Assembly: GCF_014280035.1 (NCBI RefSeq)
Contig: NZ_CP047957.1
Span: 434,001-498,000, forward strand
Direction of reading: 5' to 3'
DNA length: 64,000 nt
Source: Synechococcus sp. A18-25c
GTDB lineage: Bacteria > Cyanobacteriota > Cyanobacteriia > PCC-6307 > Cyanobiaceae
A program made the position numbers and the translations under genes. Below, one piece after another: positions 47,131-53,797 of this stretch. Numbering within the stretch: the stretch's first letter is position 1; each line of letters begins with the position of its first letter. The notes beneath the pieces were generated by a model that made no database searches, was not told the DNA's origin, and was given only the letters and a program-made list of their open reading frames with translations.

Positions 47131-47472
47131 TCATGAAACAGTTTCTATTCCTGAATAATATCCACCAGCTCTGAAGTCGAAGCGTTCAACTTTGTCATCT
47201 TTGCTGCATGTTGTTTGAGAGTAATGCAAGAGCGTCTCATACCCCTCTGGTATCATTTTGGGGCATAGTCTTCCAACATCATTGGCAAAAGGACAGAAAT
47301 AAACACCTGCCCAGCGATTTAAGAAACGTCCTTTAATTTCGTCAGAAAAATCAAAACCATTTTGATCGGCCAACCTAAGAATCTCTTCAGGCTCGGCTTC
47401 TGCAAAGAGCTGTCTGAATGAGGCGTTTTCCTCTAAGACTCCAAGGAAACGGATAAATTCTGCGCGTGACAT
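47131..47472 (-). CDS. Nif11-like protein with Cys-containing C-terminal domain
   Basis: The first 45 residues match the Nif11 domain: SRAEFIRFLGVLEENASFRQLFAEAEPEEILRLADQNGFDFS split here as a helix pair ending in the usual GFDFS. The 65-residue C-terminal part is extended, has Cys at several places (YFCPF, RLCPK, TTCSK) and is not repetitive. Nif11 domains act as leader peptides of some lanthipeptides, but no double-Gly cleavage site or modifying enzyme is visible. Convergent with cpeZ. Function unknown. Confidence 0.65.
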   Translation of the reverse strand: MSRAEFIRFLGVLEENASFRQLFAEAEPEEILRLADQNGFDFSDEIKGRFLNRWAGVYFCPFANDVGRLCPKMIPEGYETLLHYSQTTCSKDDKVERFDFRAGGYYSGIETVS

Positions 47473-52367: not shown

Positions 52368-52589
52368 GTCATTGGATGATTGTTAACGGCAATCTTTTCG
52401 CAGAATGGGACTCCTGCTCCAAGATTGCTGTTTCTATTCAGTGACTCTACCATCGAGTTGGTTTTAGAGCCTTCTTTAAGGCTTTTGATGGTTGGAGCAT
52501 TAATTGATAGTAGGGTTTTTCCCTGCTCTCTTGTTGCAAATATTCAATGGTCTGGTCTGTTAGCATTTAATCGTCTTTGTCTTTCTGTG

Positions 52590-52910
52590 ATGCCAGTCTC
52601 TCCAGAAATTGAGCAATCTCTTCATCGCTTTGTGGATGCTGTCAAAGAAACAGTTACCGTTCAATCACAGCTGAACGAGATCACAGATCTTGAGCAGCTT
52701 AAAACTGTTGTTCGATCTATTGATCCGATCATTACTGGTTCTGCACTGATCCCGTATGAGCAAGCTACAAGTCCTCCGAAGATCACCATAGATTCGGGTA
52801 TTCTTCAAGAACAAATTCCCTGGAGACTTTTGCGTTGCCCAGGGGGACCATTGGTTTTGCAGATGATCTGTAAAAATGTGAACTTTGCATTGTGGATTGA
52901 AAGCTGTTGA
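52590..52910 (+). CDS. Divergent Nif11-like small protein 1
   Basis: The protein is about 106 residues from ATG 52590. Its first half (EIEQSLHRFVDAVKETVTVQ, LNEITDLEQLKTVVR) has the helix-loop-helix spacing of a Nif11 domain, though the usual GFdFS end is lost. The C-terminal half has IPWRLLRCPGGPLVLQMIC. The frame is open further upstream to 52380, so a longer product (176 residues) is possible. It is followed after one base by the second Nif11-like gene. Confidence 0.5.
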   Translation: MPVSPEIEQSLHRFVDAVKETVTVQSQLNEITDLEQLKTVVRSIDPIITGSALIPYEQATSPPKITIDSGILQEQIPWRLLRCPGGPLVLQMICKNVNFALWIESC

Positions 52911-52911
52911 T

Positions 52912-53193
52912 ATGTCCTCTTCTCAAATTCAGGAATTTGTCGCCAAGGTTGTTTACGACCATTCAGTTGCTACGGGATTGAAAGCCTGTCAATCTGATCA
53001 GCAAATTGTTGATTATGCTTCGCAAGTTGGTTTTAATATTTCAATTCAGGAGTGGTTAGTTTTCGTTGAGTCTGATTTCTCCAGTTTGTCTTCAACAGAA
53101 AAAGAACGTATCGCAATCGTTGAGCCTCAGCATTGGTCTTGGGCATTCCGTCGGGTTCAGCCCTGGAGATCAATGCTTATGGATGGTGCATGA
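52912..53193 (+). CDS. Nif11-like small protein 2
   Basis: The protein has 93 residues. Residues 4-50 match Nif11: IQEFVAKVVYDHSVATGLKACQ, then QIVDYASQVGFNISIQEW. The C-terminal tail is aromatic and basic (EPQHWSWAFRRVQPWRSML). No double-Gly site is seen. It starts 1 base after the preceding Nif11-like gene, so the two are translated from one mRNA. Function unknown. Confidence 0.65.
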   Translation: MSSSQIQEFVAKVVYDHSVATGLKACQSDQQIVDYASQVGFNISIQEWLVFVESDFSSLSSTEKERIAIVEPQHWSWAFRRVQPWRSMLMDGA

Positions 53194-53231
53194 GCTTGCC
53201 ATTGACGCAAGCCTAGAATAGAATAATTGAA

Positions 53232-53483
53232 ATGATTCTTAGTGCAGTCATGGATGCTTCTGTCACCAACGACCAAAAAGATGCAGTTTTAGAGTCGTTT
53301 ATAACTCTTGTGCGCAATGACTCTGATCTCCAAGCGCAGGTAAAATCTGCCTTGAATCAAGATCAAGTCATTGATATTGCAGCTTCACTTGGATATTCTT
53401 TTGATTCGACTACAATTTTAAGAAAATGGAGTAAGCATACTGATTTTTCTCAAGACACATGGATGGGCTGGTTTGGAGATTAA
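53232..53483 (+). CDS. Nif11-like small protein 3
   Basis: The protein has 83 residues. The Nif11 domain is clear: VLESFITLVRNDSDLQAQVK, then DQVIDIAASLGYSFDSTTIL. It ends in an aromatic tail (FSQDTWMGWFGD). Translation might start at ATG 53250. It is the third gene of a plus-strand run and is convergent with cpeR, with 8 bases between stops. No modifying enzyme gene is near. Confidence 0.65.
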   Translation: MILSAVMDASVTNDQKDAVLESFITLVRNDSDLQAQVKSALNQDQVIDIAASLGYSFDSTTILRKWSKHTDFSQDTWMGWFGD

Positions 53484-53491
53484 CTCAGTAT

Positions 53492-53797
53492 TTAACTATT
53501 TATATCTGAATACCTTGTTTGCTTGCTTCCTTTTTTAGCCCAATACGTTACTAGTTTCTCTCCCCCCGGCCTTGGTACTGATGCTATCGCGCGTAATATT
53601 TTGAAGGTTCTGTTAGGTCCCATTGGCCAATTTCCCACTGCTTTAACTGTTCTTATTTTGCCACCCATTCTCTTGAGACATTCTTCGAACTTATCCAGCT
53701 GAGTTTGATCAACTGTTTCAAACATGAAATCACTACCCTCGCATATTAAATGATGAGAGCGAATCCATGCTTTCATTTGTTTATCTACATCAAACAT
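53492..53797 (-). CDS. cpeR: CpeR phycoerythrin operon regulator
   Basis: The 101-residue protein matches CpeR, needed for expression of phycoerythrin genes in Fremyella: MKAWIRSHHLICEGSDFMFE, QLDKFEECLKRMGG and NWPMGPNRTFKILRA. Its biochemical mode is not settled. It overlaps cpeT by 8 bases, so translation is coupled. Confidence 0.88.
   Translation of the reverse strand: MFDVDKQMKAWIRSHHLICEGSDFMFETVDQTQLDKFEECLKRMGGKIRTVKAVGNWPMGPNRTFKILRAIASVPRPGGEKLVTYWAKKGSKQTRYSDINS

Follow-up and report, generated by a model that had tools for sequence, protein, structure and literature searches.

The three small genes unk9, unk8, and unk7 in the phycobilisome rod region of Synechococcus sp. A18-25c look like helpers for building the PEII antenna rather than precursors of natural-product peptides. 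PEII (phycoerythrin II) is a main light-harvesting protein of open-ocean Synechococcus. With somewhat more confidence than doubt, we favor the interpretation that the three products form a small accessory complex dedicated to PEII biogenesis, likely as adaptors or chaperones at the delivery or attachment of bilin. The genes co-occurred almost exclusively with PEII, kept their order and neighbors, were fused in some genomes, were under purifying selection, encoded predicted folded domains, and did not depend on LanM. Co-transcription, a physical complex, the partner proteins, and the step served are what we infer.

The window is the whole 64,000-nucleotide stretch of DNA that was analyzed, bases 434001-498000 of a 2.51 Mb single-contig genome. 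The original prediction of three small consecutive plus-strand genes of 106, 93, and 83 amino acids was confirmed, positions included; the genes are real and are unk9, unk8, and unk7 of the marine Synechococcus rod region. The features are as follows.

unk9 (gene 1), 52590-52910, plus strand: 106 amino acids; worn-down Nif11 helices at about residues 8-49 and a conserved C-terminal domain at about residues 54-106.
unk8 (gene 2), 52912-53193, plus strand: 93 amino acids; Nif11 domain at residues 1-48 and a helical C-terminal part.
unk7 (gene 3), 53250-53483, plus strand: Nif11 domain and a conserved tail, DS...LR.WS...DF...TW.GWF.
Intergenic region separating unk9 from the divergent mpeY, 52368-52589, no strand: 222 bases, presumed to hold both promoters.
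Gap between the tail-to-tail stop codons of unk7 and cpeR, 53484-53491, no strand: 8 bases.
unk10, 47131-47472, minus strand: Nif11 gene (33.0 bits), the fourth in the rod region, outside the trio.

An alternative upstream ATG for unk7 at 53232 gives the 83-amino-acid version (53232-53483); the internal ATG at 53250 was favored as the start because many unk7 orthologues are about 77 amino acids long. No conserved promoter block upstream of unk9 was seen by eye in an alignment. Unk7 and cpeR meet tail to tail (window positions 53483-53492), and overlapping transcripts are possible. Unk10, which the original prediction did not include, is flanked by genes presumed to be mpeU and cpeZ. The trio is under purifying selection, with dN/dS values of 0.03-0.41 in 16 of 18 gene-by-pair comparisons; of the other 2, one was undefined (no synonymous change) and one was 1.36 with a dS of only 0.02. 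This selection, together with orthologues in the same order across many genomes, places the trio beyond chance.

We searched 201 genomes of the family with single proteins, at E<=1e-8 for Unk8 and E<=0.01 for Unk9. MpeA at 77% identity or more marked 36 genomes as PEII genomes; the next among the matches listed reached at most 64%. Unk8 was found in 26 genomes and Unk9 in 36. The restriction to PEII genomes described for this trio in Six et al. 2007 held for Unk8 in 26 of 26 and for Unk9 in 34 of 36 carriers, the 2 carriers without MpeA being weak matches (E 0.0015 and 0.009). Conversely, only 2 of the 36 MpeA genomes had no Unk9 match, and these were 73% and 72% complete. Neither Unk9 nor Unk8 was found in any of 87 genomes classed as having phycoerythrin without MpeA, a class set by E-value bands (1e-60 to 1e-35) and not by a tree.

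The 10 MpeA genomes without Unk8 all belonged to genus g9. In 3 of these 10, the Unk8 profile gave a weak match that fell on the Nif11 part of Unk9, and it gave no other. These results indicate that Unk8 is not strictly required for PEII. For Unk7 in genus g9, the profile search covered loci from five or six of the 10 MpeA genomes; in the A. feldmannii locus, the Unk8 ORF was the only one to answer the Unk7 profile. Because the marine copies lie in one cluster that could move as a block, their co-occurrence with PEII is partly linkage, and the placements in g9 and Aphanocapsa are the more independent part of the association. Carriage by phages was also considered and rejected: PHROGs matches were at chance level (best E 0.21), and PADLOC returned one chance-level match for Unk9 (E 0.064). 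A viral contig collection gave 6 and 16 pattern matches, none of which was confirmed as a relative of Unk9 or Unk8.

The names mpeY and cpeR were assigned from place in the published layout, with profile support in the form of a weak CpeY match for mpeY only. On the mpeY side, the trio is flanked by a divergent gene for a 398-amino-acid HEAT-repeat protein whose best NCBIfam match, CpeY, was far below cut-off. On the cpeR side lie a 101-amino-acid gene without a Pfam or NCBIfam match and then a CpeT-family gene. Neighbors checked by profile were HEAT-repeat lyase relatives, phycoerythrin alpha and beta subunits, bilin reductases, and the CpeT-family protein. The window thus agrees with the layout of Six et al. 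2007, in which three short genes follow one another beside cpeR within the PEII sub-region. The synteny with mpeY and cpeR that had been proposed as a check proved conserved: cpeR faced the trio in 26 of 28 record-titled loci, and mpeY was directly divergent from unk9 in 25 of the 28 (in L078 by a 28% match only). In all 26 loci where cpeR was found, its stop codon was 1-12 bases from that of unk7. Unk9 and unk8 were nearly contiguous (gap of -7 to +3 bases in 17 split loci), and unk8 and unk7 were 17-61 bases apart (16 loci).

Two record labels in this set deserve mention. In the PEII cluster of a metagenome-assembled genome labeled Prochlorococcus marinus (bin.404; L049/L074), a lyase-like gene separated mpeY from unk9, and the fused unk8-7 was followed by unk5 instead of cpeR; as a carrier of PEII, this genome may be mislabeled. 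A 5 kb contig labeled Deltaproteobacteria bacterium UBA6967 (L095) held a partial PEII region from mpeA to cpeS and is probably a binning error.

A different setting was found where MpeA was most divergent (77-78%), in A. feldmannii 277cV and genus g9. There, unk9 was the next recognized gene after pebA-pebB, both in A. feldmannii 277cV and in all 6 examined g9 loci (from 6 of the 8 g9 genomes with an Unk9 match); in A. feldmannii 277cV, unk8 comes after unk9. The tie to PEII therefore outlasts a change of neighborhood, and the new setting is that of phycoerythrobilin synthesis.

Unk8 and Unk7 were encoded by one continuous ORF in 9 of the 25 genomes with both. Among record-titled loci with both, a set that overlaps the 25 genomes, fusion was found in 5 of 27, WH7803 included. 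MpeA of the nine fused genomes was 82-88% identical to that of the window, and MpeA of the 16 split genomes was at least 91% identical. Both states occurred within genera g1 and g5. Taken together, these data indicate that fusion follows PEII type and not genus. The fusions point to Unk8 and Unk7 acting as a joint unit.

The original prediction called the second and third genes clear Nif11 proteins and the first divergent, and the PF07862 scores agreed: Unk8 (42.6 bits) and Unk7 (39.8 bits) passed the cut-off of 23.8, and Unk9 of the window was below it (16.9 bits, E 0.0079). A Nif11 match for all three was thus borne out over cut-off for two genes. Likewise, Unk8 (37.9 bits) and Unk7 (34.0 bits) passed TIGR03798 (cut-off 32.3), for which Unk9 had no match. 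PF07862 matched 9 of 28 Unk9 orthologues at E<=0.1 (best 0.00055). A full-length Unk9 relative from genus g9, the one copy tested, scored 46.7 bits, which supports descent of Unk9 from Nif11 although the window copy fails the cut-off. Alignments of three g9 copies of Unk9 with four others spanned 88-101 residues and showed 23-36% identity. In profile comparisons, Unk7 and Unk8 were strongly matched (95.9%) and are related, whereas marine Unk9 matched Unk8 weakly (12%, E 0.0024). A sequence search of solved structures matched the Nif11 domain protein 9zn4 with Unk8 (6e-7), Unk7 (2e-4), and Unk9 (0.42); the other rows were at chance level. The source genome had 50 Nif11 places, 49 of them over cut-off; the three in the window were Unk8, Unk7, and Unk10. 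One place outside the window (G000:C1:1012331-1012501, L118) starts a protein of about 183 amino acids whose remainder looked cupin-like by eye.

The original prediction had described short tails. That description did not hold: the tail of gene 1 is half the protein, and the tails belong to the fold and are conserved. Mean column identity in Unk9 (28 sequences) was 0.73 for the C-terminal part versus 0.40 for the Nif11 part, and in Unk7 it was 0.72 for the tail versus 0.58 for the Nif11 part. The two parts of Unk8 had 0.45 (C-terminal) and 0.44 (Nif11). Its C-terminal part carries a conserved HWSWAFR..WR..LM stretch, of which HWSWAFR was nearly invariant. L079, which contains unknown residues, was left out of these counts and of alignments A6 and A7; A7 further leaves out L085, L091, L093, and L097-L099. 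Cys83 and Cys94 of Unk9 were invariant in the 28 sequences, A. feldmannii included. The g9 copies have other residues at these positions, which speaks against a covalent bilin site common to all Unk9 proteins there.

In the Unk9 model, a beta region comes after three helices (mean pLDDT 85.9, pTM 0.76); across five Unk9 models, pLDDT ranged from 73.3 to 85.9. From sequence and model, Unk9 appears to be a worn-down Nif11 protein with a conserved C-terminal domain of predicted beta structure. The model of the fused Unk8-7 protein of WH7803 was helical, with high confidence inside each domain (mean pLDDT 87.6) and no confident interface (pTM 0.55). Fold comparison gave Unk9 no clear match to a solved structure: the best Foldseek E was 0.14, and the best VIA Z was 4.5, with an rmsd of 3.1 over 73 residues (profilin), amid closely spaced rows. 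Neither the Unk9 nor the fused Unk8-7 model had a Foldseek match at E<=0.001 or a Z of at least 5, which leaves room for a known fold. By sequence, the C-terminal domain of Unk9 matched no solved structure up to E 10. Across the class, this domain matched in 14 of 291 genomes at E<=0.01; 12 matches were strong, and all 12 were in the MpeA set. Two weak partial matches (E of about 0.006) were dropped: L072, by eye a 72-amino-acid ORF without a Nif11-like start, and L073, which had internal stops.

Passing TIGR03798 is one reason to ask whether the trio encodes precursors of lanthipeptides or other RiPPs on which a LanM of the genome would act in trans, as with prochlorosins. Another is that the source genome does have a LanM-type ORF of 1128 amino acids about 1.4 Mb away (LanC_like match 8.7e-35 at G000:C1:1862413-1863486, outside the window; L106, L124). 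The original prediction that there is no LanM is accordingly true of the neighborhood and not of the genome. Outside the window, 36 of 47 Nif11 places had Gly-Gly, and 34 of those 36 had a core Cys; with the LanC_like ORF, this suggests that the strain has a prochlorosin-type system and many precursors of that type. The trio does not resemble those places. Its tails are conserved, and family similarity does not end at a Gly-Gly with a variable Cys-rich core beyond it. Unk8 and Unk7 of the window have no Gly-Gly, as predicted; Unk9 does have one, at residues 85-86, inside its conserved domain. Unk7 of the window has no Cys, and Unk8 has a single one (residue 26), which lies inside the Nif11 part and is common to 43% of 28 sequences. 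Nor does the modification enzyme accompany the genes across carriers: in a RiPP enzyme search that covered LanC_like (LanM) alone, LanC_like was found in 3 of 36 PEII genomes and was absent from 33. A precursor role is hardly credible on these data, and the original view that the genes do not have the features of lanthipeptide precursors is supported. Annotation by TIGR03798 alone would label Unk7 and Unk8 RiPP precursors, which they do not look like.

If the trio is an accessory complex for PEII, its members would most likely be non-catalytic adaptors or chaperones. In concert with the PEII lyases, they would act at the delivery of phycoerythrobilin to the PEII subunits MpeA and MpeB or at its attachment there. 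The Nif11 helices could serve as docking modules and the conserved C-terminal parts as partner-binding surfaces, with Unk8 and Unk7 presumably forming one unit. The step would be a PEII-dedicated one in biogenesis, either the supply or loading of bilin or the assembly of subunits, by what is so far a presumed mechanism. Co-occurrence and linkage cannot separate assembly from regulation or turnover. The job in phycobilisome assembly or regulation that was originally predicted fits in its tie to the phycobilisome.

Three other roles were weighed. The trio could be structural or turnover proteins of the PEII rod, such as linker-like caps or, by analogy with NblA, adaptors that would pass PEII to a protease. 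Small, mostly helical proteins with conserved aromatic stretches and a strong PEII link would suit this, but their Pfam matches included no linker or NblA, and where MpeA is divergent, the closeness of unk9 to pebAB points more toward synthesis; we regard such a role as quite unlikely. Regulation of PEII or PEI gene expression, by binding CpeR or another regulator or by transcript overlap with cpeR, seems unlikely as well. Three features would suit a regulator: the trio runs on the opposite strand to the mpe and cpe genes that flank it on either side, the stop codons of unk7 and cpeR are consistently close, and a further Nif11 protein, Unk10, shares the chromatic acclimation island with the regulators fciA/fciB (PMC3877281). 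However, no DNA-binding domain was among the Pfam matches of the trio, no cpeR was recognized near the unk9 that follows pebB in A. feldmannii and the examined g9 loci, and L074 has no cpeR beside the trio.

The genes could also be passengers linked to PEII and kept by linkage alone, with another role such as sensing of nitrogen status. Nif11 proteins are recorded in nif clusters too (PMC2246261), which would agree with such a role. The low dN/dS values in 16 of 18 comparisons, the persistence of the association after relocation to the pebAB neighborhood, and the absence of matches from the 87 genomes assigned to the class with phycoerythrin but no MpeA all speak against passengers, and we consider this very unlikely.

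These data narrow the role of the trio to one tied to PEII in nearly all searched genomes that have PEII, with a hint of the bilin supply step. The parts list for PEII assembly is incomplete. The trio also suggests that certain Nif11 domains may be simple docking modules. A tentative extension, possible although doubtful, is that Nif11 was recruited as an antenna-assembly adaptor at about the time PEII arose. Unk9, a Nif11 domain joined to a so far unmatched beta domain, would then act at the hand-over of phycoerythrobilin from PebB to the PEII lyases, with Unk8-Unk7 joining in marine lineages; Unk8-Unk7 could have been gained later or lost in genus g9. If true, Nif11 would be a general docking module and not only a peptide leader.

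Among known systems, CpeZ and similar lyase partners are non-catalytic helpers of phycoerythrin lyase. CpeZ offers an analogy in how the trio might work only; no sequence relation was seen with Pfam or NCBIfam. The prochlorosins and other TIGR03798 precursors of Haft et al. 2010 (PMC2887384), which are Nif11-derived RiPP precursors, share the leader-like Nif11 domain with the trio, and Unk7 and Unk8 pass the model. Unlike these precursors, the trio has no leader-type Gly-Gly and no hypervariable Cys core, and its similarity runs on toward the C-terminus. Clusters of Nif11 genes near photosynthesis genes are noted in a RiPP survey (PMC10783134). Unk10, named with its Nif11 domain by Humily et al. 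2013 (PMC3877281), is also present in the window and resembles the trio in having that domain, in its size of about 110 amino acids, and in its occurrence in PEII strains. It differs in its C-terminal sequence and in its linkage to the end of the PEII region or to the chromatic acclimation island, where it accompanies fciA/fciB.

The closest system is unk7-8-9 of Six et al. 2007 (PMC2246261), which are the same genes. That paper describes a row of three short genes restricted to PEII strains, PF07862 in Unk7 and Unk8, and fusion of unk7/8 in WH7803; it suggests that Unk7 and Unk8 are two subunits of one complex and proposes an unknown PEII-related function. The trio, whose job the original prediction called unassigned, have been named unknowns since 2007 and were still listed as conserved hypotheticals in Mahmoud et al. 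2017 (PMC5318389). A literature search, which missed most subscription journals, found no functional study of them. The core observation is not new. One detail differs: in the WH7803 locus (L077), the fused gene was on the same strand as unk9, whereas Six et al. 2007 gives it as reversed. Relative to that work, our analysis adds genome-wide co-occurrence with PEII, the tracing of Unk9 to Nif11 with a conserved C-terminal domain, linkage to pebB within pebAB in genomes with divergent MpeA, a fusion count (9 of 25 genomes), and the evidence against RiPP precursors.
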